From a virus, in IMG/VR virus record IMGVR_UViG_3300019487_000058, positions 1-38,438 of that record: 38,438 nucleotides of DNA, one strand, 5' to 3'. Under the pieces are notes generated by a model. That model searched no databases. It was given only the letters and a program-made list of their open reading frames with translations, and was not told the origin of the DNA. Of this stretch, positions 1,375 through 38,438 are shown one piece after another. The translations under genes and the position numbers were made by a program. The number at the start of each line of letters is the position of its first letter. The first letter of the stretch is position 1.

Positions 1375-3220
1375 AAATTCCAATAATGCTTTAGACCAGT
1401 TTAACAAGCTTTCCGATGATGAAAAGCGCTACGTCATCGAGGTAGGAAGGGCAGCTAAAACATTAGAAGATCCATATCAAAAAGCATTGTTCGTTGGGCG
1501 CAGCGCCCTAGAAGGACACACATTAGGTTTATCTGAGCCGGTAATTTCCACATTAAAAGCTTCTGTAAAATCTTTCAGTCCGCAAGTGGATTTTGCCGGT
1601 GCTTATAAAGAAGACGTGGAACAGCGGCGAGCCGAGAAGGCGGCAGCGCCTGGAACAGATATAGCCGCACAAGTTGGTGGAGCTTTTATCCCATCCCCCA
1701 TAAATATAGGTACCAAAATTGGCGGTGTGGCTATGAAGGGGGGCGAAGTTCTTTCTAAAGCCTATAACGTAGCCAATGCTTATATGAGAGGAGCCATTAA
1801 GGGTGGATTGGCTGGATTAGCCTCAACTGGAGCAATGGAGGCCATTGAAGTCCCAACGGGATTTAAAAAACCAGAGGGATCGTTAGAAAGAATAGCGGCT
1901 GGCACTATTATTGGTGGGGCCTTTGGTGCTCCATTAGAAAAAGTAGGTGAAGTCGGCTCTGAGATAGCAAAAAAGGGGTTGCTAAAAGAGGGGGCAAAGG
2001 AAACTGTCGAAGCTGGAAAGAGATTAGGAATAGAACCAACTCCAGGGCAATTATATAAAAGTCAATTCATTCAGGAATTAGAATCCTCAATGAGAAATGA
2101 GCCGTTACCGAATGCCGCTAAAGCTGCCATGCAAAGTCGTAATGAGAAATTAAATGACGTTGCGGAATCTATGTTTGAAGAGGCTATAGGATTGTCGAAG
2201 GCTGAAGTGGGGGCATCGGTTAGAGAGCGATTAATCCAAAAAGTAAATGATATGATTGCCCCAGCAAAAGAGATTTACGAAGAATTATATAAAAAATACG
2301 GAACCGCAACCGCTCCCATATTAAAGACAAATAATGTTATTGTGGATCTGCAAGATGCTGCCCAATTGGATGTTAATTCTAAAACAATTGAGAACGTCTT
2401 AAATCAATTCAAGCCAGCTCTAGAACGCATTCAAACAATAAGTGATTTGAAAAGGGTAAGAGAAAGTATTGGCGCTTTCATGCGCAATACTGATGATGAT
2501 GTTGCTAAGGGTGTGGCTGGTAAAATTTATGAAGCACTTACACAAGATAGAGCGCAGGGTTTACGTGATGCAGGTGCTAAAGTCGGTGATATGCAAGCCG
2601 GTAAAGCTGTGGAATTGGCGGATAGTATTTATAAGGGAGCTGCTCAAACTGTTGGAGAAGCCCTACCAGTTAAGGTTCCAACAACGAAACCATTCCAGGC
2701 TGTTACAAAACAGATAGAGCAAACGGAAAGACTTAAAGTAGGTGATAAGTTTTTCAATTTAAATAATTTGGACCAATTAAAAAAATTTCAAGAGCAATTT
2801 CCGACCGAATTTGATGCCTTGAGACGTGCCAGATTATCAGAGTTACAAGATAAGTCAGGCGGCACAGCGGCTGGGTTTATTAGAATGGTTAAGCAACTAG
2901 AGCCAGAGCATCTTTTTATATTATTTGGGAAAAATGGTAGTCAGAAAGCTAAAGATATAACTACTTTTATAGAATCAATTCCTGAAAGAGTGGGTGGAAG
3001 CGATACTCCAAGAGGAACCAATTGGGCAAATTTTGTTAAAAACATGGTCAGTCTAGTTGGACCATTAGAGACCTATTCAAAAGATCAATTATATAGACTT
3101 TTGACTGGTATGATTTCTGGTGAAAAATTCTCGTCTGCACTTCAAAGACGTGTTGCATTGCCCGTTTCTATTGGCTTTAAACCGGCTGAGGAAAATCCAA
3201 TGAATAGAAGGAAAAAATAA
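1361..3220 (+). CDS. Large internal virion (DNA ejection) protein
   Basis: 619 aa. Residues about 100-200 hold Gly/Ala-rich hydrophobic segments (GGLAGLASTGAMEA, GTIIGGAFGAPLEKVG) of the glycine-zipper kind seen in podovirus ejection proteins that enter the host envelope. The rest is predominantly helical and charged, with a basic C-terminus. The start overlaps the previous gene by 14 bases and the stop overlaps the next start (TAATG), so translation is probably coupled. No lytic transglycosylase motif was seen. The role is inferred from size, composition and location after the tail genes; sequence families here diverge strongly. Confidence 0.7.
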   Translation: MAENENSNNALDQFNKLSDDEKRYVIEVGRAAKTLEDPYQKALFVGRSALEGHTLGLSEPVISTLKASVKSFSPQVDFAGAYKEDVEQRRAEKAAAPGTDIAAQVGGAFIPSPINIGTKIGGVAMKGGEVLSKAYNVANAYMRGAIKGGLAGLASTGAMEAIEVPTGFKKPEGSLERIAAGTIIGGAFGAPLEKVGEVGSEIAKKGLLKEGAKETVEAGKRLGIEPTPGQLYKSQFIQELESSMRNEPLPNAAKAAMQSRNEKLNDVAESMFEEAIGLSKAEVGASVRERLIQKVNDMIAPAKEIYEELYKKYGTATAPILKTNNVIVDLQDAAQLDVNSKTIENVLNQFKPALERIQTISDLKRVRESIGAFMRNTDDDVAKGVAGKIYEALTQDRAQGLRDAGAKVGDMQAGKAVELADSIYKGAAQTVGEALPVKVPTTKPFQAVTKQIEQTERLKVGDKFFNLNNLDQLKKFQEQFPTEFDALRRARLSELQDKSGGTAAGFIRMVKQLEPEHLFILFGKNGSQKAKDITTFIESIPERVGGSDTPRGTNWANFVKNMVSLVGPLETYSKDQLYRLLTGMISGEKFSSALQRRVALPVSIGFKPAEENPMNRRKK

Positions 3221-4569
3221 TGTCAGCACCAAGCGTAACATACACATTTACTAATGGGACTACCGCAGATGGCTCGCAGGTCAATCAGAATTTCACCGAT
3301 GTCTTAAATGGTATTAGTGACGGTTCAAAAGATTTGACCATCAATGATTTTACAGCCAACGGCAATGTCATTTTAGGGTCTTCTACTGCCGATAGCCTTG
3401 TTATAAATGCGGATTTGAGTTCGTCAATTACTCTCAATACGACATTTACATATGATATTGGAGAGGCGACCGTAGGATTAAGAGATCTTTATCTGGGAAG
3501 TGCCGATTCGGCAGCTAGAACCACAAAAATTCGTGGAGCTACAGTCGCTTCGAGTTATACGCTTACTACACCTACGAGTGGGGGAACATCTAGATTTAGA
3601 ACTCTTACTGATGGGAGTGGAGGTCTATCTTTTGAAGAGGTCCGAGATTCTAGACATATAAATAATCTTGCATTAACCGCCTCAGTTGGTTCGAGTGCTT
3701 TAACCATTGCTCTTAAAGGTGCAAATGGCAGCGACCCAAGCGCAACAAATGTGGCTGAGGTTGCCTTTAGAAGTGCTACTGCTGCGACAGGAACACCAGT
3801 ATATAGATCCGCGACTTCGGCAACGTCTTTAGTGATTTCATCAGGATCTACTCTGGGTCATGTCAGTGCTACCAACGAGTTTATTTATGTTTATGCCCTA
3901 GACAATGCTGGAACTATTGAATTAGCTGCAACCACCACCAGAATTGATGAGGGAACGAGACAGAGCACAACAGCTGAGGGTGGCGCTGGAGCATCAGATA
4001 GTCGAACTGTGATTTATTCAACAACAGCCAGAAGTAATGTTGGCATGAGATTGATCGGTCGATTAAAGAGCAATCAAGCCACAGCAGGAACATGGGCTAC
4101 TGCCATTAGTGAGATTAGTCTTTATAGCAATTCAGATTATACCCAAGAACTAAGTCAAGTTATCGGGGATTCCCCAAATGGTCATGGATCCACTAATACT
4201 GCCATTAGAAGATGGAGCAATTCAACTACGATTGGGTCAGCGATCACATACGCTGATTCCGCAACCGATGGAATGACACTCACCATCAATGAAGCCGGAC
4301 TTTATCTAATCACTTATTCCGATGGTAGAAGTGGCAATACGGCAGCCCATGGTATTAGTGTTAATTCAAACCAACTTACAAGTAACATCACTGGGATCAC
4401 TACGGCACATAGGCTCATGTCCAACGCGAATACTCCCGCAGATGCGATTTTATGTGTGAGTGCCATGGCTAGGCTTATACCAGGTGATATTGTGAGAACC
4501 CATACTGATACTACTAATAATATTACTGCAGCATCGGCACAATTTAGGATTCACAAAATGAGTGAATAA
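3220..4569 (+). CDS. Tail fibre/spike with C1q-like C-terminal domain
   Basis: 449 aa, rich in Ser, Thr, Gly and Ala with many short beta repeats. The N-terminus (MSAPSVTYTFTNGTTADGSQ) resembles the start of many environmental phage fibre proteins, where it would join the virion. The C-terminal 130 residues have the pattern of a C1q/TNF-like trimeric jelly roll: GLYLITYSDG, then LIPGDIVRTHTD and a final FRIHKM strand. This would be the receptor-binding end. It lies between ejection proteins and the lysis cassette. The high Ser/Thr content makes it one possible acceptor for O-glycosylation by the Maf-like protein at 33009-34022, which is speculation. Confidence 0.75.
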   Translation: MSAPSVTYTFTNGTTADGSQVNQNFTDVLNGISDGSKDLTINDFTANGNVILGSSTADSLVINADLSSSITLNTTFTYDIGEATVGLRDLYLGSADSAARTTKIRGATVASSYTLTTPTSGGTSRFRTLTDGSGGLSFEEVRDSRHINNLALTASVGSSALTIALKGANGSDPSATNVAEVAFRSATAATGTPVYRSATSATSLVISSGSTLGHVSATNEFIYVYALDNAGTIELAATTTRIDEGTRQSTTAEGGAGASDSRTVIYSTTARSNVGMRLIGRLKSNQATAGTWATAISEISLYSNSDYTQELSQVIGDSPNGHGSTNTAIRRWSNSTTIGSAITYADSATDGMTLTINEAGLYLITYSDGRSGNTAAHGISVNSNQLTSNITGITTAHRLMSNANTPADAILCVSAMARLIPGDIVRTHTDTTNNITAASAQFRIHKMSE

Positions 4570-6428: not shown

Positions 6429-6649
6429 GACCAATCCCAACCGTTCTGCGCATTGAGCTCCTTTTCGAGCTCGGCTTCTTGCTCATCTGTTCTAGCAATG
6501 ATTCTATTTCTAGTTTTAGGTTTTTTACGAAGTGAAAGAGGAATTTCATTAATGGGTCCGTATCCTTTAAGAATCCGGTGTATAAGCCACAGAGTGCCGA
6601 CTTGGGTTATAAAGCACATGATTGAGATAGCAAGTTGAATGTCCAGCAT
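6425..6649 (-). CDS. Small N-terminally anchored membrane protein
   Basis: 74 aa. Residues 3-25 (DIQLAISIMCFITQVGTLWL) form one membrane segment, followed by a basic then acidic cytoplasmic or periplasmic tail (TDEQEAELEKELNAQNGWDW). It is the last gene of the sugar operon and its first 83 bases overlap the 3' end of the acetyltransferase gene. Topology would allow an inner-membrane spanin subunit, but it is on the opposite strand from the lysis genes and short, so this is only one option. The ending LNAQ is reminiscent of the tails in the 14.7-16.9 kb gene block. Confidence 0.55.
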   Translation of the reverse strand: MLDIQLAISIMCFITQVGTLWLIHRILKGYGPINEIPLSLRKKPKTRNRIIARTDEQEAELEKELNAQNGWDWS

Positions 6650-7157
6650 CCCATTCCTCTCTTAATATTCCCATAATATGGGCGTCAATCAATTTCCCAT
6701 TCTTAAAATAATGATGCCTTAATTTACCCTCTTGTTTCATCCCAATTGATTCAAAGAGTGTCAACGCTGGGTTCCCCTCGAATGTCTCACCCCAAATGCG
6801 ATTTAACCCAAATTCATAAAATCCTCTTGAAAAGAGGTCTTTAATTGCCTCTTTTGCATATCCCTGCCGTTGATGTTTAACCGATATGTATAGGGAGAAT
6901 TCCGCAACTCTACTAATCCAATTGATCCCAGTAAAACCACACACACCCACCGGAAATATATTATTCTTTTGCTTGGCAACATAAATGCCGTAAAACTGGC
7001 TTGAATGTTCCGAATCAACTTTAGCCCAATATTCTTGATGCTGGCCCATGCTTCTAATCGTATGCTGTCTGCACCATGTATAAATTTGTGGATCATTTCT
7101 CCAATGAAAAGCCGATTCATAAGGCACCACATCTAGAAATACTATTGGTCTAGACAT
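6567..7157 (-). CDS. GNAT N-acetyltransferase, PseH/RimJ-like, in nonulosonate operon
   Basis: 196 aa from the ATG at 7157; an upstream in-frame start at 7205 would lie mostly inside the preceding gene. The GNAT fold signature is clear: beta-4 strand (EFSLYISVKHQRQGYAKEA) with the acetyl-CoA loop Q-R-Q-G-Y-A, then LNRIWGETFEGNPALTLFES and GMKQEGKLRHHYFKNGK typical of the PseH/RimJ branch. In NulO pathways PseH acetylates the 4-amino group of a UDP-sugar. The operon context (dehydratase, aminotransferase, cytidylyltransferase) supports this over ribosomal protein acetylation. A roughly 20-residue C-terminal extension overlaps the next gene. Confidence 0.85.
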   Translation of the reverse strand: MSRPIVFLDVVPYESAFHWRNDPQIYTWCRQHTIRSMGQHQEYWAKVDSEHSSQFYGIYVAKQKNNIFPVGVCGFTGINWISRVAEFSLYISVKHQRQGYAKEAIKDLFSRGFYEFGLNRIWGETFEGNPALTLFESIGMKQEGKLRHHYFKNGKLIDAHIMGILREEWDAGHSTCYLNHVLYNPSRHSVAYTPDS

Positions 7158-7314
7158 ATTCAAGCACAATAGATTTAAGCCTGTAGTATGACTGCTCAAC
7201 TTCAAAGTTAGCTCCGTCGTTGAGTGCCACTAAACACCTATTCATTTTCGTGGGGTGTTCTGAAACCCTTTTTATATCATCAGCTTGGATAAGTAGTTTC
7301 GTGGACAGCTCCAT
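7150..7314 (-). CDS. Small protein, FlbD-like pattern
   Basis: About 54 aa from the ATG at 7314 (preceded by CAAGAG). A TTG at 7416 would add 34 residues but overlaps the aminotransferase end and has its SD-like AAGGAG inside the start, so the shorter form is preferred. The sequence LLIQADDIKRVSEHPTK then CLVALNDGANFEVEQS resembles small beta-rich proteins such as FlbD (I..I...P...V.L.DG..F.V.E). The function is unknown. It sits between the aminotransferase and acetyltransferase and overlaps the latter by eight bases, so it is part of the operon. Confidence 0.55.
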   Translation of the reverse strand: MELSTKLLIQADDIKRVSEHPTKMNRCLVALNDGANFEVEQSYYRLKSIVLEYV

Positions 7315-7360
7315 TTTCTCTTGTGTTGCCTGCCCCTTAAGTTCGAACTTAATGGGTAGC

Positions 7361-8566
7361 TCAATCCATTTGTCGGACGGTTTCTGCAAAAGGTTTTTTT
7401 GGGATTTCTCCTTCAAGGATCACCTCATTATTTCCTATTTTGATTAAGATAGCTGTAAATGTTTTAATAAGCTCGAATGTCAATTCTGCATGATTCAAAT
7501 TCCAAAAGTAGGATGGTCCAACGAGAATTCTTGCTTTGCAACACTCTTGGAAAAAAAGAGCCTTGGTCAAATCATCTTTAGCTTTCCAAATGCCTCTTGT
7601 CGGGTAGCCTTCCATTTTGATTAAGTCAGGATTTATTTGATTGAATGCATCTTGGAATATTTTGGCTTGCTCCCATATGTTGATAACCGGATGCTCCGTA
7701 CGTAAGAGATCCAATGTCTCCATAGCTGCGGCGATAGATAACCTCTCCCCACTAAATGTAGAAGAAACAAAGTAATCACTCTCCATAACATCTTTTTTGC
7801 CCCCCACAACAGAAATTGGCATTCCACCACCCAAAGCTTTTCCGGTGATTATAAGATCAGGGGTAACTCCAGACCATACAGCAACCGAAAGACCAGGGAA
7901 TCTTAAGCCAGTTATTGTCTCATCGAAAATTAAGATAATGTCATGGGCATTGCATATCTCACGTAGCTTCTTTAAAAAGATCATTCTCGTATCAGAAAAA
8001 TCTGTAATTACAGGCTCAATAATAATCCCAGCCAAACGATCATAATCCCATGAATCATGAATCGAGCCGATCGTTTCACTGAAATGCGTTGGAATACCTT
8101 TCGCCGGCGGCGTCATGCTTATAAATTCATCATGCCATCCATGATAACCTTCAGAGGCTATGAGATTCCATCCTGTTACGGCCCTTGCCATTCTAATGGC
8201 TGCGGTACACGCGTCACTTCCGGATTTTAAGATCCTGATTCTATCGACGAATGGGAAACAGGCTTTAAACTTTTCCGCGAATTCTACTTCCATGGTTGAG
8301 GACAAAGATAATGAAAACCCTGTATCCAATTTGTTTTGGATAGCCTCTTTGATATGTCTATTGTTATAGCCCAACAGATTAGTGCCCAAACCACAGATAA
8401 AATCAATATACTGGCGCCCTTGCGTATCTGTGACATAACATCCATGCCCTCTTTCTAAATGCGTTGGGTAAACTCCAAAAACGAATGTCTCTGGTCTTTT
8501 GGAATTAGTTAATGCGCTATGTGCGATGGATTCTTGAGCGCGTCTATACCATGAAAAATTTGTCAT
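7361..8566 (-). CDS. Class III PLP aminotransferase (GSAM-like), nonulosonate/amino-sugar pathway
   Basis: 401 aa, full length for glutamate-1-semialdehyde aminomutase-like class III enzymes. Seen: KSGSDACTAAIRMARAVTG (114-132, phosphate-binding loop), YHGWHD (141-146), IFDETITGLRF (213-223, Asp215 contacts the PLP pyridine nitrogen) and ITGKALGGGMP (240-250) with Lys243 as the Schiff-base lysine. It overlaps the cytidylyltransferase by four bases. In this operon the likely substrate is a keto-sugar or an acyclic sugar derivative rather than glutamate semialdehyde, since no other haem genes are present. Canonical Pse/Leg pathways use DegT-family enzymes at the amination step, so a class III enzyme is a departure. 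Confidence 0.88.
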   Translation of the reverse strand: MTNFSWYRRAQESIAHSALTNSKRPETFVFGVYPTHLERGHGCYVTDTQGRQYIDFICGLGTNLLGYNNRHIKEAIQNKLDTGFSLSLSSTMEVEFAEKFKACFPFVDRIRILKSGSDACTAAIRMARAVTGWNLIASEGYHGWHDEFISMTPPAKGIPTHFSETIGSIHDSWDYDRLAGIIIEPVITDFSDTRMIFLKKLREICNAHDIILIFDETITGLRFPGLSVAVWSGVTPDLIITGKALGGGMPISVVGGKKDVMESDYFVSSTFSGERLSIAAAMETLDLLRTEHPVINIWEQAKIFQDAFNQINPDLIKMEGYPTRGIWKAKDDLTKALFFQECCKARILVGPSYFWNLNHAELTFELIKTFTAILIKIGNNEVILEGEIPKKPFAETVRQMD

Positions 8567-9276
8567 GTGACTACTATCCCAGTACGTCTTGCCAGGTTCT
8601 TTGCGTCTTTTAGAAGATTTTCTCTAATCCTTGCTTTATCCAAATCCTCTTTTGTATCGATTGAGGTTTTAATATCCGGTTCGTAATATTCGCTTAAGAT
8701 ATGACATATGGATGGCCTGCCTTCTGTATCTTTGAATGGGAACGGCACTTTATTGAGCAACGTGCCGACATGTTCAAGATCCATCTTTTCGGTCGCGTTT
8801 TCTTGAAGCCAATACAACAGCTTTTTAGAAAAGACTTGGACGTCCATACCCTCTTTAAACGTTCGAATTAGGGTGTTAGTCGTATAATCCCTATTTTTTA
8901 TAAGCGCACTTTTGATGTGCTTAGCAATAATATGGGTCGGTATCGCTTGGCAATCTCCAGTAATTCTTACAATATAATCGGCATCGTATGCCTTTGCCGC
9001 TGATGCATATCTAGATAAGACGTCGTCTTTATCGCCTTCATAAGTAGGCACCTTGGATCGATATATGGCAGCTAATGGATCTTCCTTTGGGACCAAAAGC
9101 ATATAAAATATTTCAGCGTTTAGAGTTTCGCGGTCTTTTCTCATGTATCTAATGACACCTAAACAAGATTCCAAAATCCAATCTAAAACGGGTTTGTTAT
9201 CGATAACTGCCAAGACCTTACCGGGAAGTCTTTCTGAATCTGATCTTGCCTGAATGCCCACTATCACTTTGCGCAT
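8563..9276 (-). CDS. SpsF-like cytidylyltransferase (CMP-sugar activating enzyme)
   Basis: 237 aa. The N-terminus IVGIQARSDSERLPGKVL holds the nucleotide-binding signature of the NeuA/PseF/KdsB/SpsF group (QARxxSxRLPGK). DYIVRITGDCQAI (about 100-112) holds the Asp of the metal/CMP site, and SIDTKEDLDKAR near residue 210 is the typical SpsF ending. The enzyme would join CMP from CTP to the finished acidic sugar. It overlaps both the oxidoreductase (13 bases) and the aminotransferase (4 bases). Whether the substrate is a pseudaminate-like, legionaminate-like or other 3-deoxy sugar cannot be told from sequence. Confidence 0.85.
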   Translation of the reverse strand: MRKVIVGIQARSDSERLPGKVLAVIDNKPVLDWILESCLGVIRYMRKDRETLNAEIFYMLLVPKEDPLAAIYRSKVPTYEGDKDDVLSRYASAAKAYDADYIVRITGDCQAIPTHIIAKHIKSALIKNRDYTTNTLIRTFKEGMDVQVFSKKLLYWLQENATEKMDLEHVGTLLNKVPFPFKDTEGRPSICHILSEYYEPDIKTSIDTKEDLDKARIRENLLKDAKNLARRTGIVVT

Positions 9277-9884
9277 ATGTTTTGAATCTTCTTAGTCGTA
9301 TTGATTACCAATTCCTTAGACCACATCCGTTTTTTGTCTCCGACAAAGTCTTGAATCATTTCGATGTACGCCATGTCCATTCTGGCGATGGATATTGGCT
9401 CGCCATTAATCGTGCATTTCCAAATGGGGGATTCGTTTTTTACGATCACATCAGCTTTTGCCATGGCAAATATTTGGAAACAATCCCAGTAAAGACCGTC
9501 TTTTCCAGAACTGAAATAATCATAAAATGAGTTTTCCTCGCCTCCATGGAGCATAGTAAGCGTGATAAATTCGTATTGATTGACGCAATAAAGTCTATTT
9601 CCCCATGCCTCACAATTTTTATAGACCGCTTCAATATTGTCGGTAGTAATGGGTTTTTCGCAAAGGAACTCAACATTGGTTCTTAGTGCATTTAACGAAT
9701 CGATAACTCCTTCGTGGGTATGGGTTGGGGTCGCAATAATAAATTGATCCGCCATCATTGTTATTTCATTTTTAAGAGCTCTTAAGTCTCCAGTGTCATA
9801 TCCGACATATGGGATTTGTAGGTATTTTAAAATGGCTTCGTAACGCCGACCCATATTGCCTTTATTGCCAATGACACAAATCAT
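9264..9884 (-). CDS. Short Gfo/Idh/MocA-type oxidoreductase
   Basis: 206 aa. The N-terminal Rossmann domain is evident: ICVIGNKGNMGRRY (2-15), FIIATPTHTHEGV (48-60) and FLCEKPIT (73-80), the EKP motif that places the catalytic lysine in this family. The usual C-terminal substrate domain (members run about 330-380 aa) is reduced to about 100 residues. No frameshift is seen, the frame is intact and it overlaps both neighbours, so it is probably a genuinely compact form. It likely oxidises or reduces a hydroxyl of the sugar made by this operon. Confidence 0.8.
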   Translation of the reverse strand: MICVIGNKGNMGRRYEAILKYLQIPYVGYDTGDLRALKNEITMMADQFIIATPTHTHEGVIDSLNALRTNVEFLCEKPITTDNIEAVYKNCEAWGNRLYCVNQYEFITLTMLHGGEENSFYDYFSSGKDGLYWDCFQIFAMAKADVIVKNESPIWKCTINGEPISIARMDMAYIEMIQDFVGDKKRMWSKELVINTTKKIQNICAK

Positions 9885-10723
9885 AATGAATTAACTGTCT
9901 CTTCTATTAAGTCCCGCATTTCTTTTTCGGTATACCATAAGGATCGGTCTGATGAATTCATCTTCCCGCCCTCATCATCAGTTCTTAAATCCTCGTGGAT
10001 CTTCTCTCCAGCTCTAATTCCTATTTCTAGAATATTCGGTTTTTTCCCTAGGATTTCTCCGATTAGATTTCCTAATGAGACGACTGGATAGGCCTTCATT
10101 TGTGGGATTCTTAAACCCCCAGTTGGTCTTTGAGATTGTAGATAAATAAAAATGGCAGCGTCTTCTGGCTTAACCCAAAATCTAGTCATTCGCCTATCTG
10201 TGATCCTAATGCAACCGTCCTCTTCAATGCTTTTAACGAATGTGGGGATAACGGATCCACGGCTGGCGGCGACGTTTCCATAGCGGCAGACAACATTATT
10301 TGGATTTCTTAATACGAGACGTTCCGCAATTCCTTTGGTCATGCCATAGAGATTAATTGGCAAACATGCTTTATCGGTAGAAGAAAGAACGACTTTTTGG
10401 ATCGAGTGGATGCGTTGAGCATGTAGAGCGTTCGATGTCCCGCCAATATTGGTTTGCACTCCCTCTTCTGGGTTTTCTTCTAATTTGTCTACGTGTTTAA
10501 GGGCTGCGAAATGATAGATGACTTCAACACCCCTTGCAGCTTCTAATAGCCTATCGGTTTGTCGGACATCCCCTAAATACAGGGTGCATTTAGATTTCCA
10601 TGGGAATTGGACTTGCTTTAATTCGTCTCTGGAATACCCAATGACCTCATGCCCATCTTCTAATAATAGGCGTGCGACATGAGTTCCGAGCGTTCCAGTG
10701 ATGCCCGTAATAAGGACTTTCAT
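9881..10723 (-). CDS. PseB/CapD-like NDP-sugar 4,6-dehydratase (SDR)
   Basis: 280 aa, slightly short for PseB (about 330). Seen: GITGTLG (7-13, NAD(P)-binding), AALKHVDKLEENPEE (73-87, the signature of the FlaA1/PseB/CapD branch), SSTDKA (114-119), Tyr126-xxx-Lys130 in YGMTK, YGNVAASRGSVIPTF and ITDRRMTRFWV. PseB makes the first committed step of pseudaminic acid synthesis by converting UDP-GlcNAc to a 4-keto-6-deoxy sugar with C5 inversion. Here Lys of TDKA is kept. The gene overlaps the oxidoreductase and the upstream small gene by four bases each, so the whole set is one transcript from the divergent region at 10.9 kb. Confidence 0.88.
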   Translation of the reverse strand: MKVLITGITGTLGTHVARLLLEDGHEVIGYSRDELKQVQFPWKSKCTLYLGDVRQTDRLLEAARGVEVIYHFAALKHVDKLEENPEEGVQTNIGGTSNALHAQRIHSIQKVVLSSTDKACLPINLYGMTKGIAERLVLRNPNNVVCRYGNVAASRGSVIPTFVKSIEEDGCIRITDRRMTRFWVKPEDAAIFIYLQSQRPTGGLRIPQMKAYPVVSLGNLIGEILGKKPNILEIGIRAGEKIHEDLRTDDEGGKMNSSDRSLWYTEKEMRDLIEETVNSL

Positions 10724-19606: not shown

Positions 19607-20816
19607 ATGGGTACCCATTGAAAAGATCAAACCCAACCCCAAAAACAGGAATATCCATAGCAAAGATCAAATCGAAAGACTTGCAAAACTTATCCAGTAT
19701 CAAGGCTGGCGAGTTCCACTTATCGTATCAACCCTATCTAAAAAACTTGTTGCAGGTCACGGTCGATTACTTGCGGCCAAGTCGCTTGGTCTTAATTCCT
19801 GCCCGGTCCTCTACCAAGACTTCAAAGACGAAGACCAAGAAAACGCGTTTAGAGTAAGCGATAATGAAATTGCCAGATGGGCCGAACTAGATCTAGCAGG
19901 GCTTAACGTAGATGTTGTCGATTATGGCCCTGATTTTGACTTGGAATATTTAGGGCTAAAGGATTTCGAACTAGAGCCAGCAGATAAATACGGAGACAAA
20001 GATGCTGACGACACTCCAGCTGTCCGTCCTACTGATATCAAACTCGGTGATATGTTTCAGCTTGGGAGTCATCGCCTCAGTTGCAATGATTCTACTAATA
20101 GAGAAGCTGTCGAGAGACTAATGAATGGAGAGAAGGCGGATATGGTTTTTACCGACCCGCCATATAACGTAGGATTTAACTACAATTCTTACGACGACTC
20201 GAAGGTGTCAAAAGACGAATGGCGCGAACAAGCAATGAAATGGCATGACCAGTGGGTGGGAATGTCTAGTAGGGTGGTGGTAACACCAGGTTGTAACAAC
20301 CTGGAAATTTGGTGCCAGGTAGCCCCGAACATCACGCACATCGGATGTTGGGTCAAGTCTAACGCCAACACAACAGGCAGGGTTACGCACCTATGGCAAT
20401 GGGAGCCCATAATTTTCATTGGCAAGTTCGACAGAAAAAGAGCCAGCGATGTATTTGAGCACCATGTTGATTCTGGGTTTCTCAGGGATAAAAGCACTGG
20501 CAATCATCCCTGCCCAAAACCAGAACGCCTGTGGTCGGATATCGTTGAAAACTTTTCTAATCCAAATGACATAATCTTTGAGCCGTTTTGCGGATCCGGA
20601 ACCACCGTAATTTCATGCGAGAAAACAAACCGAAGATGTTTCGGAATGGAAATAGACCCACAATACGTACAATGTGTGATTGATCGTTGGGAGCGTTTTA
20701 CCGGGCAGAAAGCTGTTAAACTAGAATCTAAACCCAAAACAATAGTCAGGAAACATGGCAGACAAAGTCAGACGCGGACGTCGAATGTCTCATTACGCGC
20801 CCTTAGACGAGACTGA
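19557..20816 (+). CDS. ParB-domain/DNA methyltransferase fusion
   Basis: About 419 aa from GTG at 19557, with a GGGAAAAGA stretch upstream; TTG at 19524 would add 11 residues. The first 90 residues are a ParB/Srx-type domain (WVPIEKIKPNPKNRN, VAGHGRLLAAKSLGL). The second part is an N6/N4-type DNA methyltransferase of beta order, with the catalytic DPPYNVGF before the SAM motif EPFCGSGTT. Such fusions are common in phages and prophages and probably modify phage DNA or control packaging. Its last 60 bases overlap the small-terminase-like gene. Confidence 0.88.
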   Translation, partial: NVGREKSKSGSNSQKIEWVPIEKIKPNPKNRNIHSKDQIERLAKLIQYQGWRVPLIVSTLSKKLVAGHGRLLAAKSLGLNSCPVLYQDFKDEDQENAFRVSDNEIARWAELDLAGLNVDVVDYGPDFDLEYLGLKDFELEPADKYGDKDADDTPAVRPTDIKLGDMFQLGSHRLSCNDSTNREAVERLMNGEKADMVFTDPPYNVGFNYNSYDDSKVSKDEWREQAMKWHDQWVGMSSRVVVTPGCNNLEIWCQVAPNITHIGCWVKSNANTTGRVTHLWQWEPIIFIGKFDRKRASDVFEHHVDSGFLRDKSTGNHPCPKPERLWSDIVENFSNPNDIIFEPFCGSGTTVISCEKTNRRCFGMEIDPQYVQCVIDRWERFTGQKAVKLESKPKTIVRKHGRQSQTRTSNVSLRALRRD

Positions 20817-23499: not shown

Positions 23500-24132
23500 A
23501 TGGCGACACCAATTACATTAACAGTAGGGCAGTCTAGGATCGCATCGGAAGGAAGAACATGTGAACCGATACTATTAGGACTCCCAGTATTGTTCCCAGG
23601 CGGATATACCGAAGACACGACATTTGATCTTTTAACCTACTGCGAATTTTTTAGGGCCAGAGGACAAGCCGCAAACGTAAATTATGCGTTCTATAGAGTT
23701 CTTGTGACGCCAGCACTTTTAGCATTAGCACCTGGAGCGATGACTAATCCTGATAAACGATTTATCAATTGGGGAACTAATCTCATTATCACACATACTC
23801 CGGCGGGATATGCTAGGCGAGCCGCAATGATTTCTCTTATGAATGCCTTGGTTGATTATATTTCCGTTCCAACCGCTGCAAAGAGAAACGCGATCCTAGC
23901 GACCGTAAAAGCAATTGAGCCGAATCCAGCACAGCAAGCTGAAATGCATGTTGCCAATTCTTTCAAAGGTATCGCGTACTCGGTTGTGACGAATAACGTG
24001 ACAGCCCATGTTTTAAGCGATCTGGGACTAAGTTTAGTAAGAGCTGGAGAGAAGCTTGCTGGACTTCCAAAGATCGAGGTGGAAAATGTCATTCTCACAA
24101 AAATGGAGCAATTAATTGGAATTATCGACTGA
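23500..24132 (+). CDS. Hypothetical protein of the adhesin module
   Basis: 210 aa, starting one base after the adhesin stop. N-terminal strand-rich segment (MATPITLTVGQSRIA) then mostly helical (AAMISLMNALVDYI, AAKRNAILATVKAIEPNPAQ) with no catalytic motif. The position suggests a virion or fibre-assembly protein. Family not recognised. Confidence 0.6.
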   Translation: MATPITLTVGQSRIASEGRTCEPILLGLPVLFPGGYTEDTTFDLLTYCEFFRARGQAANVNYAFYRVLVTPALLALAPGAMTNPDKRFINWGTNLIITHTPAGYARRAAMISLMNALVDYISVPTAAKRNAILATVKAIEPNPAQQAEMHVANSFKGIAYSVVTNNVTAHVLSDLGLSLVRAGEKLAGLPKIEVENVILTKMEQLIGIID

Positions 24133-24157
24133 GAATCTTTGGAAGGTAATTAAGCAG

Positions 24158-24688
24158 ATGCTTCATAACTACATCATTGCGGCATGTATCGATCTTCTTT
24201 TCCATCAACTTGGATTGGAGTTGTGGCCTTGGTTCTGGACTAAGAACCTGACGATAATTTATTTTGTCGATTTTTACATGTATTGGGAACATGTGGGGCT
24301 TCACTTTGGCCCGTCATGGCTTCAGGCTCTACATATTCGCCATCATAAGGAGTTCCAATTAGACAGGAAATTACACTTAAATTTAATTGAATTCTTGATT
24401 GAGATACCGCCAGGATTTGCTTTCTCATGGTGGCTGACTGGTTCTCTACCATTCGCATTTCTTGTAGTGCTGGTCGGACTCTATGAAGCATCGCGTGGGC
24501 ATGGGCAATATAAGAAGGCGAGTAAAGTGAGCCCACCGAAGGGTTACTATCGTTATTTGAATTTTTGCGGCGGTCGGTATCACACCTACCATCATGATTT
24601 CGATCCAACTAAAAACTTAGGTCAGATGCTTCGCAATTTAGATGAAATCTTCGGGACCGAAGCGGTGAATCCTTATATAACACGATGA
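24158..24688 (+). CDS. Membrane di-iron hydroxylase-like protein (fatty acid hydroxylase/sterol desaturase superfamily)
   Basis: 176 aa from ATG at 24158; TTG at 24116 is an alternative adding 14 residues. Histidine clusters match the membrane di-iron pattern: EHVGLH, HIRHH (HxxHH) and HTYHHD (HxxHH) in the second half, spread among hydrophobic segments (IIYFVDFYMYW, FAFSWWLTGSLPFAFLVVLV). In bacteria such proteins hydroxylate or desaturate lipids or carotenoids; a lipid A or ornithine-lipid role is possible. Phage copies are unusual. Length is short (family about 200-280). Confidence 0.72.
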   Translation: MLHNYIIAACIDLLFHQLGLELWPWFWTKNLTIIYFVDFYMYWEHVGLHFGPSWLQALHIRHHKEFQLDRKLHLNLIEFLIEIPPGFAFSWWLTGSLPFAFLVVLVGLYEASRGHGQYKKASKVSPPKGYYRYLNFCGGRYHTYHHDFDPTKNLGQMLRNLDEIFGTEAVNPYITR

Positions 24689-25524: not shown

Positions 25525-25560
25525 TAAGTTTAAGAATGCCGTTTGAAAGGGGAATTTGCA

Positions 25561-26559
25561 ATGGTGCTTTCCAAACCATTTATTATAGCTGATATCGGGT
25601 CTACCTGGAAAAGAGGGGCCAGCAGAGAAGAAAACGCCCTCTTTGCACTTAGAGCAATTGACAGTGCGGCAAGGGCTAAAGTAGACGCTGTCAAATTCCA
25701 GCTCTATTCACATAAAGATCTGTACGGGTTTGATGGGGAAAATCCGTATGAATTGCCCACAGAATGGTTAGCAAATTTAAGAGTAAGAGCTGAAGATTTA
25801 AAACTTGAATTCATGTGTACGGTCTTTAACGCGGAGAGGGTAAGCGAAATAAATGATTTGGTCAGGATCCATAAAATAGCCTCAAGCAATATGAAAGACG
25901 TTGATTTGATTGATGCTATTGCTCAGACTGGAAAACCAGTAATCGTTTCCACTGGTTCTTCTCATTATTTAGAAATTCAATGGCTAATTAACTTATGGCC
26001 CGAGATATCCCCTGCCCCCTTATGCATTTTAGATTGTGTGGGAGCATACCCAGCTCAAGAAAGAGACTATCACTTACAAATGTTGAGCCAAATAGCATCT
26101 CACACTGGCAGTATCGGTGTTTCTGACCATACATTGAGTAATATCGTCGCTCTTTCTTCGATTGGGTACGGAGCAACGGTATTTGAAAAGCACTTCGATG
26201 CGTTTAAAGACATGGGAATGTGCCAGGTTCCGGATTCAGCTGTAGCAATTAGTGAATCTGAGATGACAAAGTACGTAAATGATATTCATTTGGGTATGCT
26301 AGCTTGCGAAAAGGCGTTAAGAAGGCCTTCAAGAGCTGAAGATGAGTTCCAAACGATGCACAGACGTCGAATAATCGCACTAAAAGACTTGAAAATTGGC
26401 GATAAACTCTTAAAAAACGTCAATTACGGGGCTTTCAGAACCAAAAAGCCTGATTTTAGGGGTGCACCAATGGAAAATATCAACTTTTTCCATGAAAAAA
26501 CGATAAATGCAGAGATCCCAGCGTTTCACGGCATCGCGTCTAGTGATATTCTGAAATAA
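25561..26559 (+). CDS. Nonulosonic acid synthase (NeuB/PseI-like)
   Basis: 332 aa from ATG at 25561 (AAGGGG eight bases upstream); a TTG at 25543 is less likely. Seen: DAVKFQLY (42-49), HKIASSNMKDVDLI (104-117), GKPVIVSTGSS (124-134), CVGAYPAQERDYHLQML in the place of the family's C-x-YPxP motif, IGVSDHTL (185-192), FEKHF (208-212) and a C-terminal antifreeze-like SAF domain (about 270-332, RRRIIALKDLKIGD). These synthases condense PEP with a 6-carbon sugar to give a 9-carbon acidic sugar. It is isolated from the other sugar genes and lies 27 bases before the terminase gene. Confidence 0.9.
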   Translation: MVLSKPFIIADIGSTWKRGASREENALFALRAIDSAARAKVDAVKFQLYSHKDLYGFDGENPYELPTEWLANLRVRAEDLKLEFMCTVFNAERVSEINDLVRIHKIASSNMKDVDLIDAIAQTGKPVIVSTGSSHYLEIQWLINLWPEISPAPLCILDCVGAYPAQERDYHLQMLSQIASHTGSIGVSDHTLSNIVALSSIGYGATVFEKHFDAFKDMGMCQVPDSAVAISESEMTKYVNDIHLGMLACEKALRRPSRAEDEFQTMHRRRIIALKDLKIGDKLLKNVNYGAFRTKKPDFRGAPMENINFFHEKTINAEIPAFHGIASSDILK

Positions 26560-26586: not shown

Positions 26587-27882
26587 ATGCCAGAGATTAT
26601 TCTATTCGATAAGCAAGCCGACTTTTTTAAAGCGACTAACCGCATCAATTGCTACATAGGGGGAATTCAGTCTGGTAAGACTACAGGCGGAGCTTTAAGA
26701 ATGACTAGAGCTCTGTCTCTTTTCAAAGATTCGTTAGACACGTTTATCATTGCCGCAGACACGTACAAAACGCTCTCCCAGGCAACGCTACCCAAATTTG
26801 AATACCTGGCGAAGGGTTTAGTGAAGATCAATCGCCAGAGCGGGGAATTTAAGACCGTCTGGGGTGCTAAAGGCTTCTTACGAACCGCAACCGATCCGGA
26901 ATCGGTGGAGGGGATTACCAATGTGCGTCATATCTGGCTTGATGAGGGTGGGAAGGTATCGAGGTATTTTTTTGAGAATCTTATGGGTCGCGCTGCGTTT
27001 AAAGAGGCGCCTATTGACATTACAACGACACCTTATGCAATGAATTGGCTAGCTCAACTCATTAAGGATTCTAGGACCGGAAAACGATTAGATGTAACTG
27101 CTATCAACTGCCGCTCTATCGATAGTCCATATTTCCCTAAGACAGAGTATGAAAGACAGAAAACACTTTTAGACCCCAGACGCTTCGCCATGAAGTACGA
27201 AGGCGAATTCGGCAAAATGGAAGGTCTGGTCTACGATTTATACGATCAATGCTTAATTAAATCGTTCCCATTACCTACCGGCACGATCTATTACGGTGGT
27301 GTAGATTGGGGTTACTCCCCAGATCCCTTCTGTCTAACTGTGCGTGGAGTCACACCCGAAGGGAAGCACTATCGGATCTTTGAGTTTTATAAGAATTTCT
27401 TAACTATTTCAGATGTGGTCGATATTCTGACCAGATTTCATGCCATTTACCAATTCAAAATGCTCTTCTGTGACCCATCACAACCAGCCCATATAGATGC
27501 TCTAAGCCGTGCGCGATTACCAGCTATGGGAGCTAATAACGATATTCGATACGGAATAGACAAACACTACGCGCTCATGAAAGCAGAAAAGTTCTATATT
27601 TTCGAAGACCAATGCCAGACCGGAATCGATGAGTATTCGACTTATTGCTACCGTGAGCCTAAGGAATTGAAATTGGGAGAGGATTCTAGAGAGAAAGATC
27701 AAATGCCAGTTGGGCAAAACGATCATGGCTGCGATGCGGATAGGTATACGACTTTAGGCTTAGAATTTAGGGTGGGTGAGAGATTTGTGCCTAGCCCACC
27801 GGATCTCATGGAAAGACCCAGAGATTTACAAAAACGTATTGAATGGTTGAAACGGGGAGGGACATCGCGTTACAATAAATAA
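26587..27882 (+). CDS. terL: Terminase large subunit
   Basis: 431 aa, complete. Walker A GGIQSGKTT (25-33); Walker B with acidic pair IWLDEGG (116-122, Asp119, Glu120); RNase H-like nuclease with GGVDWG (238-243, Asp240), FCDPSQ (294-299, Asp296) and DHGCDADRY (379-387). It is the ATPase/nuclease motor that packages DNA, and both domains look intact. No SD is obvious before the ATG. Confidence 0.95.
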   Translation: MPEIILFDKQADFFKATNRINCYIGGIQSGKTTGGALRMTRALSLFKDSLDTFIIAADTYKTLSQATLPKFEYLAKGLVKINRQSGEFKTVWGAKGFLRTATDPESVEGITNVRHIWLDEGGKVSRYFFENLMGRAAFKEAPIDITTTPYAMNWLAQLIKDSRTGKRLDVTAINCRSIDSPYFPKTEYERQKTLLDPRRFAMKYEGEFGKMEGLVYDLYDQCLIKSFPLPTGTIYYGGVDWGYSPDPFCLTVRGVTPEGKHYRIFEFYKNFLTISDVVDILTRFHAIYQFKMLFCDPSQPAHIDALSRARLPAMGANNDIRYGIDKHYALMKAEKFYIFEDQCQTGIDEYSTYCYREPKELKLGEDSREKDQMPVGQNDHGCDADRYTTLGLEFRVGERFVPSPPDLMERPRDLQKRIEWLKRGGTSRYNK

Positions 27883-31519: not shown

Positions 31520-32446
31520 ATGGCAAATCCCAATTCATCTTTTGACCAGATTAGCGCCATAACGGAAAAGAAATTTATCCCAAAAATGGTGGATAATATT
31601 TTCGCATCGATTCCGCTTATGAAGCGTCTGGAAAAGAAAATGAAGAAGTTAGATGGCGGATTGACCGTGGTTCAGCCCCTAAACTATGCCCAAGCTACGG
31701 CTGTGGGTTGGTATTCGGGAGCTGAAACTCTGGACAATACGGATAATGATACCATCTCGTCAGCTGAATTCCAGTGGGCGCAAATTTATGCGTCTATTGC
31801 GATTTCACGACGTGATGAACTTCGCAATTCTGGCGAAGCGCAAAAAGTGGACTTTGTTAAAAGCAAAGTCATGATTGCGGAAAAGTCCCTAAAGGACACT
31901 ATCGCAGGAGACCTGTACAACGCAGGAACAAACGCTAAGGCCATTTTAGGTCTACGTTCTTTTCTGTCTGTCTCAGCGTCTTACGGCGGTATCAGCCAAA
32001 CATCGCAATCGTGGTGGCAGGCGAATATCGATTCGTCCACTACTACGCTAACGATTTCGGCGCTGCAATCGCAATGGAGTAACTGTGCTATCGAAGGGGA
32101 ACCCCCGACGTTGGCACTGTGTACAACGGCCAATTACGACCGTTACTACGCACTGCTCCAACCGCAACAGCGGTTCATGGATTCCGAAAGTGCAGAGGCG
32201 GGTTTTACCTCGCTTATGTTCAACGGAATTCCTGTTATCGCTGATTCGAAGGCCCCAAGTGGTTATTTTATCTTCTTGAACGAAGATTATCTGGACCTTT
32301 ACGTCCATAAAGACGAGAATTTCCGGTTTGAACCGTTCATGAAGCCAATTAACCAAAACGTTCGTGTTGCACACATCTTTGCGATGATGGTCTTAGCATC
32401 ATCCAATAATCGTATGCACGCGGCTCTAACTGCCTTAACGGCTTAA
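31520..32446 (+). CDS. Major capsid protein (HK97-fold)
   Basis: 308 aa with a strong SD (AAGGAGA). It begins MANPNSSFDQISAITEKKFI and contains GGLTVVQPLNYAQATAVGWY and the C-terminal pattern FRFEPFMKPINQNVRVAHIF typical of HK97-type coat proteins of environmental podoviruses. It ends in a hydrophobic MHAALTALTA. Position between scaffold and decoration gene is diagnostic. Codon use shifts to a more regular, highly expressed style. Confidence 0.9.
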   Translation: MANPNSSFDQISAITEKKFIPKMVDNIFASIPLMKRLEKKMKKLDGGLTVVQPLNYAQATAVGWYSGAETLDNTDNDTISSAEFQWAQIYASIAISRRDELRNSGEAQKVDFVKSKVMIAEKSLKDTIAGDLYNAGTNAKAILGLRSFLSVSASYGGISQTSQSWWQANIDSSTTTLTISALQSQWSNCAIEGEPPTLALCTTANYDRYYALLQPQQRFMDSESAEAGFTSLMFNGIPVIADSKAPSGYFIFLNEDYLDLYVHKDENFRFEPFMKPINQNVRVAHIFAMMVLASSNNRMHAALTALTA

Positions 32447-32460
32447 TAGGAGAGTAAATT

Positions 32461-32946
32461 ATGTCATTCTATGGTGTTGCCCCTATTGGGTTCGAATCAG
32501 TAAGCGCAGTAACAGCCACAAACACGGTCGACTTGGGCACACGCCGTTGGCATAACGGTGAGGAATACGAGTACGTATATGCGAGCACTACGGTCCCAGT
32601 GGGATACGGTGCGGTCTATACGGGAACATCGGGTTTCTCAGTCGTTGCCACGGGTGTCGTAAGCGGTGAGTTCTGTGCGGGGTTCTGTAAGCACGTCACG
32701 ATTGCGGGTGGAACTTACGGATGGTTATTGAAAAAGGGTGTTGTTGACGCAAAGAATGGTCGCGTATCAACTGCCCCAGTAATCAATGACCTTACCTACA
32801 TGGGAGCTGACGGTGCATTTGTCACCGACGTAAAAGTCGTAACGAGTGCTATCGACCACGGACATATCATCGGAAAAGTTCTTTCCGCTGGTGCTTCGGG
32901 TGGTACAGGCGCAAGCTTGAGTCTTTTACGGCTCTCGCTATCTTAA
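32461..32946 (+). CDS. Capsid decoration-like protein
   Basis: 161 aa, SD TAGGAGAG before ATG. Beta-rich, Gly/Ser/Thr/Val-rich (GVAPIGFESVSAVTATNTVD, GYGAVYTGTSGFSVVATG) with no motif; a common pattern for head decoration or cement proteins following the coat gene. Many surface-type Ser/Thr make it the best-placed candidate acceptor for the Maf-like protein encoded just downstream, which is conjecture. An intrinsic terminator follows its stop. Confidence 0.7.
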   Translation: MSFYGVAPIGFESVSAVTATNTVDLGTRRWHNGEEYEYVYASTTVPVGYGAVYTGTSGFSVVATGVVSGEFCAGFCKHVTIAGGTYGWLLKKGVVDAKNGRVSTAPVINDLTYMGADGAFVTDVKVVTSAIDHGHIIGKVLSAGASGGTGASLSLLRLSLS

Positions 32947-32957
32947 TTTGATTATTT

Positions 32958-32995
32958 CGGCTTGGGCCTCGATTGAGGCCCGAGCCGGTTTTACT
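32958..32995 (+). terminator. Intrinsic terminator after the coat/decoration genes
   Basis: A stem of 13 bp, CGGCTTGGGCCTC (32958-32970) with GAGGCCCGAGCCG (32975-32987) including one G-U pair, and a GATT loop, is followed by GTTTTA. It separates the coat operon from the glycosyltransferase and neck genes, so their expression should be lower or separately driven. Confidence 0.8.
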
Positions 32996-33008: not shown

Positions 33009-34022
33009 ATGATTGTTGATATTAAAATTGATTTGGAATTTCAAACTTATATTCCACATCCACCTAAAAGTCCTACTCAGCTTATGGCTCAAGCGGCTTC
33101 AAATGATGAGATAACAGTCAAAACGTGGAAAGACACGTGGATTAATCAGACTAAAGAGAATCACCGTTTATACGGACCATTTAAGAAGAATCACTTGGGC
33201 AAATGTTTTAATCGGCATACTCTAAAACCGTGTATTGTCGTTGGCTCTGGACCATCTCTTAAAAAGAATATCGATTGCTTAAAAGATACTAAGGGAATCC
33301 CAATAATTTCATGTCTACACAACTACCATTTTTTAGAGGACAGGGGCATCACACCGGATTTCTATGTCAACTTAGATTCTGGACACGTGACCATAGATGA
33401 AATTTGCGAAGGCGGGACTAAGACAAGCGAAGAGTATTTGGAAAGCACTAAAGATAAGAAGTTGTGTGCCTTTATCGGCTCTCATCCGGATTTGATATCG
33501 AAATGGAAAGGTGAGGTGGTTTGGTTTAATGCTCCGATCCCATCTAAAGAAATCACTCAAGCTATTTGGAATGTTGAACCATTCGATATGATGGTCAGTT
33601 CCGGAGGGAATGTTTTAGGGGCTTGTTTTTATATCGCGAAAGCCATCTGCGGAGCTAACCCAATTATATTTGTAGGAGCGGATTTTAGTTTTTCCTATGA
33701 CAATAAATTCCATGGTTGGGAATCTAAGTATGATAAGGATTTGGGCCATGTAATTAAAGCGACCGATGTTTTTGGCAATAGGGTAAAAACATGGGATTCT
33801 TATTACAATTTCAAATGTTGGTTTGAATCCAGGATATGTTCAATCCCTGGACTTTATATCAACTCAACTGAAGGTGGAATTTTCGGCAGCTATCATAATG
33901 GAAACATTCAACAGCTCCAGCAAATTGCTCTAGCCGATGTGATTTCGATGTATGATTTGACACATCACATGAGGGGTCAATGTGAAGATCCTTCGGTGGA
34001 CAACAAACTAGTTCTTTTTTAA
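33009..34022 (+). CDS. Maf/DUF115 (MptE-like) glycosyltransferase-type protein
   Basis: 337 aa from ATG at 33009 after GGGGG. The DUF115 pattern is clear: CIVVGSGPSLKKNIDCLK (about 75-92, the GxGPSL loop), IISCLHNYHFLEDRGITPDF and NLDSG (121-125), SSGGNVLGACFYIAKAI and FVGADFSFSYDNKFHGW (221-237), then GIFGSYHNGNIQQLQQIA. Some bacterial homologues (Maf) transfer pseudaminic or legionaminic acid from CMP-sugar to Ser/Thr of flagellin; archaeal MptE is a pterin pyrophosphokinase. Given a CMP-sugar operon here, sugar transfer is the more likely role. The acceptor is unknown. Confidence 0.82.
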   Translation: MIVDIKIDLEFQTYIPHPPKSPTQLMAQAASNDEITVKTWKDTWINQTKENHRLYGPFKKNHLGKCFNRHTLKPCIVVGSGPSLKKNIDCLKDTKGIPIISCLHNYHFLEDRGITPDFYVNLDSGHVTIDEICEGGTKTSEEYLESTKDKKLCAFIGSHPDLISKWKGEVVWFNAPIPSKEITQAIWNVEPFDMMVSSGGNVLGACFYIAKAICGANPIIFVGADFSFSYDNKFHGWESKYDKDLGHVIKATDVFGNRVKTWDSYYNFKCWFESRICSIPGLYINSTEGGIFGSYHNGNIQQLQQIALADVISMYDLTHHMRGQCEDPSVDNKLVLF

Positions 34023-34035
34023 AAGGAGAATCTAA

Positions 34036-34302
34036 ATGGCATTCACGGTTAGCTCAAGTAAAACAGTATTTGGAAACGAAAGAGTGCATCATCTGGCAGT
34101 AACGGCTGATGCAGCAACACAAACGGTAGAAACTGGATTAAAAGTCGTTGTGGCTCATGCTATCGGCATTTTATCGGCTTCAACAGCCGGATTTAAATGT
34201 TATATCAATTCAAACGCTTCCGGAGTTCAATCGATGGGTGTATTGGGTATTAGTGGTGTTGTTTCCGGTGATCAGTTTATTGTCACTGTATTTGGGAGAT
34301 AA
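34036..34302 (+). CDS. Small beta-rich head protein
   Basis: 88 aa, SD AAAAGGAG. Beta pattern with GLKVVVAHAIGILSASTAGF, single Cys, ends VTVFGR. It is in the neck/decoration module and its size and pattern match small head-surface proteins. Function unknown. Confidence 0.6.
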   Translation: MAFTVSSSKTVFGNERVHHLAVTADAATQTVETGLKVVVAHAIGILSASTAGFKCYINSNASGVQSMGVLGISGVVSGDQFIVTVFGR

Positions 34303-37612: not shown

Positions 37613-38421
37613 TGGCATACGATCCAAGCGCCACAACCGCTAGATTTGATGTTTTAAGAAAGCGCCTTAAAGAAGAATCCGCTAAGACTGGCCAGGAGCA
37701 AGAAGAGGCTATTAAGAGACGTTTTGCGTCCCAAGGAATGTTGAGAAGCGGTGCTTATTTGAAATCTCAAGAAGAGGGGGCGAGTAAATTACAAGAGACG
37801 ACACAGAAAGGTTTAGAAGATATTGGGTTTGCGGAAGCCGGAGAGCAACAAAGGCAAAAGGAAGTTGAAGAGGCAAGGCAATATCAAACATCTGAAAGAG
37901 AATCAGCCCAAAAATTCGCATCTGGAGAACGAGAAGCCGGGCAAAAATTTCAATCCGGTGAAGCTCAAACGCAAAGACTTTTCAGTAAACAATTATTTGA
38001 TGAGGATATGGATTTTAAAAAGTTGGTGAATGAGCAGAATTATGGTCTTGCTAAAGCCGAATTCGAAGAATCAAAGAAATCTAACTTAGCTAACTTAGCT
38101 GTGGCTCTGAAGACTTCCGGAATGAGTGATTTCGATATGGACACTCTTTTCCAAAGAGCTGGTGAAATTCTGGGCGGTGGTCCAGGAAGTAATCCACAAA
38201 GAGAGGAAAGAAAAAATACAGTAAGTCGGATGATTGATAATACTTATCGTTCTGGAAATGAAAGTGCGACTAGGTTGATGCAAGATATTTTAAGAACCTA
38301 TGGATTTGATAAGGCCCATGATCAGTTTAGTAAAATATCGGCCGCTGGGTATAATTTTAATCAACCGAATCCTAAATTAGACCGCGTTTTACAATCCGTT
38401 CAACAGGGGAGATTCGTCTAA
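37612..38421 (+). CDS. Coiled-coil internal virion protein with imperfect repeats
   Basis: 269 aa. Residues about 70-125 contain imperfect tandem repeats of the form (S)ERE(S/A)xQKFxSGE. The protein is Gln/Glu/Lys-rich and helical throughout, without hydrophobic segments. Its stop overlaps the ATG of the following gene (TAATG), which begins the ejection-protein set. A DNA-ejection or tail-internal role is inferred. Confidence 0.7.
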   Translation: MAYDPSATTARFDVLRKRLKEESAKTGQEQEEAIKRRFASQGMLRSGAYLKSQEEGASKLQETTQKGLEDIGFAEAGEQQRQKEVEEARQYQTSERESAQKFASGEREAGQKFQSGEAQTQRLFSKQLFDEDMDFKKLVNEQNYGLAKAEFEESKKSNLANLAVALKTSGMSDFDMDTLFQRAGEILGGGPGSNPQREERKNTVSRMIDNTYRSGNESATRLMQDILRTYGFDKAHDQFSKISAAGYNFNQPNPKLDRVLQSVQQGRFV

Positions 38422-38438
38422 TGCCAACATCAATTAGA
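38421..38438 (+). CDS. First six codons of the gene continuing at base 1
   Basis: ATG at 38421 with overlap TAATG to the upstream stop; the visible codons MPTSIR run off the window end. Base 1 continues in the same frame to a stop at 421-423, giving a 146-aa product across the join. Confidence 0.7.

Follow-up and report, generated by a model that had tools for sequence, protein, structure and literature searches.

The window, by which we mean the whole 38,438-base IMG/VR virus record of an uncultured phage, carries at 33009..34022 on the plus strand a gene for a 337-amino-acid DUF115 (PF01973) protein. Comparisons with Pfam, NCBIfam and AF2/Foldseek lead us to describe its product as a putative Maf-type CMP-nonulosonic acid:protein transferase. 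The frame is open from the ATG at 33009 to the stop at 34022. Open-reading-frame listing extends the frame upstream to a TTG at 32973, but this codon is part of a terminator-like hairpin, whereas the ATG is preceded by a GGGGG run. The gene sits within the capsid module, with neighbours as the initial annotation described them. On the 5' side are the major capsid protein (31520..32446, plus strand; PHROG 9953 major head protein, E=1.2e-62) and a 161-amino-acid protein without family name (32461..32946, plus strand), whose conserved position suggests a decoration role; both are candidate acceptors. On the 3' side are a conserved 88-amino-acid protein (G88; 34036..34302, plus strand) and connector-type genes at 35045 and 35696. 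The terminase large subunit (26587..27882, plus strand; PHROG 2, E=3e-39) anchors the late module.

Some features of the record lie outside this module. The motif MPTSIR at the right end reads on into KVTQTESSSGGGG at the left end, and the product resembles an intact homologue in a relative (G001). Positions 1-423 and 38421-38438 thus appear to join in frame as one open reading frame, which would fit a near-complete genome, permuted or circular. A ParB-N domain fused to an N6/N4 DNA methyltransferase is encoded at 19524-20816. A fatty-acid hydroxylase family protein (PF04116, 6e-14), unusual for a phage of this size, is encoded at 24116-24688, just upstream of the NeuB region.

To place the gene in a wider context, we searched IMG/VR. 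A pattern scan recovered 9 close relatives, and a profile-guided scan gave 125 candidate stretches, of which the best 80 were used, making 81 loci with the window. The order TerL-portal-scaffold-MCP-DEC-DUF115-G88 is kept in all 81 (the best 80 of 125 plus the window), and G88 directly follows DUF115 wherever a locus reaches that far, with one exception. A separate scan based on the coat protein again gave loci with DUF115, apart from those whose contig stops no more than ~850 bases from the coat gene, and the loci long enough to show the order have the same one. The fixed slot of DUF115 across the loci from both scans indicates a core head-module gene of this phage group. Median pairwise identity is 0.51 for DUF115 and 0.53 for the coat, compared with 0.36 for the decoration protein, 0.40 for both the 88-amino-acid protein and the portal, and 0.34 for NeuB. 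The dN/dS ratio of DUF115 is ~0.05 (12 close pairs), consistent with purifying selection; together with the identical local order in 81 loci, this excludes chance for the gene. A tblastn search of INPHARED phages gave no match to DUF115, the patterns used found no relatives in bacterial or archaeal genomes, and DUF115 was not detected beside distant coat relatives in three MAGs. Two loci (L168 and L174) have two decoration-like matches 5' of DUF115, possibly a duplication of a candidate acceptor.

A strong terminator-like hairpin (32957..32988, plus strand; 14 pairs, 10 of them G-C) separates the decoration gene from DUF115. Similar hairpins occur at this junction in 21 of the 80 loci (the best 80 of 125), but at the preceding junction in 1/76 and at the following one in 1/78. 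The hairpin sequences differ between loci, so the feature recurs and is not merely inherited letter for letter. We interpret it as a probable step-down in expression between the two genes, a placement that would be expected for a catalytic enzyme encoded after two abundant structural proteins.

The family assignment of the DUF115 protein needs some care. It belongs to PF01973, named MptE-like (E=5.2e-26; 91.9 bits against a cut-off of 34.6), and its NCBIfam match is to FlagModPseD (E=4.9e-9) with 35.3 bits, far under the curated cut-off of 670. A weak match to PF02306 (phiX174 spike G, E=0.057) was regarded as chance. An AF2 model built from 61 phage sequences, which replaced a poor 8-sequence model (pLDDT 70.6), reached pLDDT 95.0 and pTM 0.93. 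Searched against the PDB with Foldseek, this model is closest to Maf of Magnetospirillum (5mu5; E=2.4e-10, 310 columns, whole length), followed by archaeal HPPK/MptE (8sd5; E=7e-6, 196-220 columns, about two thirds) and the human CMP-sialyltransferase ST8SiaIII (E=1.3e-3, ~205 columns). The phage profile gives the same ranking against PDB sequences (5mu5, E=3.9e-4; MptE, E=0.66). The structural comparison of Maf with MptE that had been proposed for this protein therefore places Maf first, and motifs and profile agree.

The phage set carries the Maf-type motifs GxGPSL, GGNV and N-TEGG, and the MptE motifs HAHGDN, GGFTDGDR and DLDG are found in 0 of the 61 phage proteins. Archaeal PF01973 proteins served as the comparison set to separate Maf-like from MptE proteins. 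Among them, the MptE proteins carry DLDG, HAHGDN/HAHGNN and GGFTDGDR. One archaeal protein (L194) has SSGGNV and NATEGG, as in the phage proteins, and is the best FlagModPseD match in the cellular set tested (NCBIfam, E=4.6e-21). With the phage profile this Maf-like protein scores 38.7 bits, whereas no MptE reaches 12; the profile gave no useful score to archaeal open reading frames of 347-680 amino acids with PF01973 matches (L202-L212). In NCBIfam, the MptE proteins match SteA best and the phage proteins match FlagModPseD only. Motifs, profile scores and predicted fold thus support a Maf-like rather than an MptE-like protein. We class it as Maf-like, and not as Maf, since it lacks the large flanking domains and stays under the curated cut-off: at 337 amino acids it has the sialyltransferase-like DUF115 core with Maf motifs and the genomic linkage to a CMP-nonulosonic acid (CMP-NulO) pathway, but not the full three-domain protein. 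It would function like the Maf core, with a predicted transferase activity. Several uncultured phage proteins called 'MptE-like' in BFVD also have the DUF115 fold, some far longer (540-714 amino acids), and are probably misnamed.

The initial annotation also placed a CMP-sugar operon and a NulO synthase in this genome, and both are confirmed. The operon is a five-gene cassette on the minus strand (6567-10723). It encodes a PseB-like UDP-sugar 4,6-dehydratase (9881..10723; TIGR03589 PseB, 1.9e-60; 2gn4, 1.7e-44), a short Gfo/Idh/MocA-type oxidoreductase (9264..9884; PF01408, 5e-5), a CMP-sugar synthetase (CTP_transf_3; 8563..9276; PF02348, 1.5e-13; 6oew cytidylyltransferase, 6.6e-17), a class-III PLP aminotransferase that is GSA-aminomutase-like (7361..8566; PF00202, 8e-46; GSA aminomutase 6w80, 5.8e-40) and a PseH-like GNAT N-acetyltransferase (6567..7205; TIGR03585 PseH, 1.5e-15; PF13302, 7e-15). 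The synthase is a NeuB-family protein on the plus strand, directly 5' of the terminase (25543..26559; PF03102, E=9e-44), and its closest solved relative is the sialic acid synthetase 6ncs (E=9e-23). NeuB and the cassette enzymes have conserved active-site motifs; the PseB-like protein retains STDKA and YG.TK in its match to 2gn4, a UDP-GlcNAc C6 dehydratase. NeuB lies directly upstream of the terminase in 36 measured loci. In over a third of these the two genes overlap slightly, NeuB running a few bases past the terminase start; in the window they are 28 bases apart. This arrangement suggests late co-expression, and the synthase is probably made late. In one relative (G004), a metallo-beta-lactamase-fold protein is encoded between NeuB and the terminase (L022:11755-13008).

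Compared with the canonical pseudaminic acid set, PseB-like, PseH-like and PseI-like (NeuB) proteins and the CMP synthetase are present, with the class-III aminotransferase in place of PseC. A scan of the window proteins gave no DegT (PseC-type) aminotransferase and no PseG/NeuC hydrolase; to be complete, the route would need a substitute or an enzyme supplied by the host. On the proteins scanned, it does not look like the textbook pathway to pseudaminic or legionaminic acid. A route through a class-III aminotransferase and a short Gfo/Idh protein could make a previously undescribed sugar.

Is the dispersed pathway coupled to the capsid-module gene, as was first suspected from the window? NeuB (PF03102) occurs in 33/42 and PseB (PF02719) in 19/42 of the records with DUF115 that were searched, a set that includes many fragments. 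In records of at least 30 kb the counts are 20/21 and 18/21. PF03102, PF02719 and PF01973 are all absent from six complete INPHARED outgroup phages with distantly related coats (0/6), so the co-occurrence expected of DUF115 and NeuB is seen in long records, against outgroup phages that are also without DUF115. Fisher tests of long records against these six give p=2e-5 for NeuB and 3e-4 for PseB, values that compare a single group of phages with a remote outgroup, with events that are not independent and hence low phylogenetic independence. In most of the long genomes mapped, an ordered cassette PseB-GFO-CTP-AT3-PseH lies 3' of the fibre gene. It is inverted in the window, split in one relative (G041, with PseB beside NeuB) and upstream of the terminase in another (L160), and in three loci (L161, L168 and L173) GFO and NeuB are upstream on the opposite strand. 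That the cassette and NeuB stay with DUF115 through these rearrangements suggests functional linkage. NeuB identity also tracks DUF115 identity (r=0.78). The exception is a 35.8-kb genome (G011), in which DUF115 is intact with all motifs and NeuB and PseB are absent. It keeps a short aminotransferase 3' of the fibre, with the rest of the cassette mostly absent; close to its terminase, an FkbM methyltransferase and a TET/JBP-type oxygenase are encoded (L101:9041-10506). The host of this phage may supply the CMP-sugar, the substrate may have changed, or the record may be incomplete. Apart from this genome, comparative genomics supports a coupling of DUF115 to a phage-encoded nonulosonic acid pathway across the whole phage group.

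Three acceptors had been proposed: coat, decoration protein and fibre. Residues 171-178 of the coat, DSSTTTLT, form a Ser/Thr run with a family mean of 5.8/7 positions and a minimum of 4; nine outgroup coats without detected DUF115 have 1-3 Ser/Thr positions in the same stretch. The decoration protein is divergent, yet Ser/Thr is kept at residues 54, 57, 60 and 64. Both signals are post hoc observations, which we offer as predictions. Identity covaries with that of DUF115 for coat, portal, terminase and NeuB (r=0.75 to 0.78), but not for the tail fibre-like protein (3220..4569, plus strand; r=0.08 over 20 loci). Coat and decoration protein stand as candidates, and the fibre is the weakest of the three by covariation, though the cassette adjoins its homologue in most long relatives mapped.

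Two alternatives concern where the sugar goes. It might be placed on the fibre or another tail protein instead of coat or decoration, an idea encouraged by the adjoining cassette and by a fibre Ser+Thr content of 28%. The absence of covariation and the constant position of DUF115 beside the decoration gene make this unlikely. Alternatively, NulO and transferase could serve, in infection or in lysogeny, to modify a host structure such as flagellin, pilin or another surface protein instead of the virion, perhaps so as to exclude other phages. Bacterial Mafs do act on flagellin (PMC11339370), and an integrase in relative G004 (L023) makes lysogeny possible in the group, so that some relatives may be temperate. 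Counter to this, the transferase gene is embedded among the capsid genes and most records that extend to the terminase have NeuB next to it, an arrangement that suggests late expression, and Gtr-type membrane machinery was unseen among the window families. We consider a host target rather unlikely.

Two further readings concern the reaction itself. The Pfam family name and the second Foldseek match, MjHPPK, would fit a 6-hydroxymethylpterin diphosphokinase like MptE, or another small-molecule kinase, unrelated to the sugar genes. We reject the MptE identity on motifs, profile and fold and regard such a kinase as very improbable: the MptE motifs are missing from 61/61 phage proteins, the profile and NCBIfam both separate the phage proteins from MptE, other pterin genes were unseen in the window, and the slot is fixed in the capsid module. 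The idea that the transferase modifies nucleic acid, such as the phage's own DNA, would find some encouragement in the oxygenase of the exceptional genome G011, since TET/JBP-type oxygenases are linked elsewhere to DNA base modification. No such oxygenase was found among the window families scanned, and both the Maf-like fold and motifs and the slot in the head gene block argue for another target, making this reading scarcely credible.

We therefore favour, as likely, a system in which the phage itself synthesises a CMP-activated nonulosonic acid, which a minimal Maf-like transferase then attaches to a virion protein, most plausibly coat or decoration protein. In this scheme, a UDP-sugar would be shaped by the PseB-like dehydratase, the class-III aminotransferase, the PseH-like acetyltransferase and the Gfo/Idh oxidoreductase. 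NeuB, probably late, would condense the sugar with PEP, and the cytidylyltransferase would activate the nonulosonic acid to the CMP-sugar. The DUF115 protein would be a minimal soluble Maf-type transferase, with an N-terminal helical segment and a sialyltransferase-like core but without the long Maf flanking domains. It would move the sugar, in the host cytoplasm, onto Ser/Thr of a late-module virion protein before or during assembly, and the hairpin terminator would hold it at a catalytic level, below its structural substrates. Mimicry of host glycans, or hiding from binding, has been suggested as the benefit and is speculation.

Taken together, the window phage and dozens of relatives, with their own sugar genes and a head-module transferase, probably decorate their own particles. 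The fuller statement, that widespread uncultured small podovirus-like phages possess self-contained virion O-glycosylation, possibly with a new nonulosonic acid and with a Maf-type core head-module gene, is one on which we are evenly divided. If true, these phages would offer an analogue of giant-virus self-glycosylation that uses sialic-acid-like sugars, and a transferase no longer tied to flagellin. Capsid sugar-coating by phages would become directly testable, with both a reason (recognition, adsorption or protection) and a cost (~6 kb), and the group would be a source of small Maf-like enzymes for glyco-engineering. Such a system would also suggest that many phage proteins annotated 'MptE-like' may be misnamed; the uncultured Caudovirales proteins of that name in BFVD, such as A0A0F7L3H2, have the same fold (E=1e-13) and are annotated by name only.

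Maf enzymes use CMP-NulO, CMP-Neu5Ac or CMP-Kdo and act on Ser/Thr without a fixed sequon (PMC11339370). The phage protein resembles the Maf flagellin O-glycosyltransferases (5mu5) in fold, in the GxGPS, GGNV and N-TEGG motifs and in its associated CMP-NulO pathway. It differs in its length (337 amino acids, against 632 modelled in 5mu5), in having no flanking domains, in its ~15% identity, and in its position in a phage capsid module without flagellin genes. With MptE (8sd5) it shares the Pfam family and a Rossmann-like core with a GxGPSL loop, but not HAHGDN, GGFTDGDR or DLDG. The literature searched held no description of a Maf-type transferase in a capsid module together with a phage NulO pathway. 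The suggestion of an undescribed system thus holds for this version, whereas other enzymes are known to glycosylate phage virions. Phage enzymes are reported to glycosylate the coat proteins of mycobacteriophages Che8 and Rita (Freeman 2023, as cited in PMC11256854); as that citation presents them, the putative glycosyltransferases lie near the genome 3' end, whereas in the window a Maf-type enzyme lies in the head module alongside a NulO pathway. Giant viruses, namely chloroviruses and mimiviruses, are reported to encode sugar synthesis and to decorate their own particle (PMC9614988, PMC10117803). They are eukaryotic viruses with very large genomes; here, a 38-kb phage would devote ~6 kb to its sugar system.
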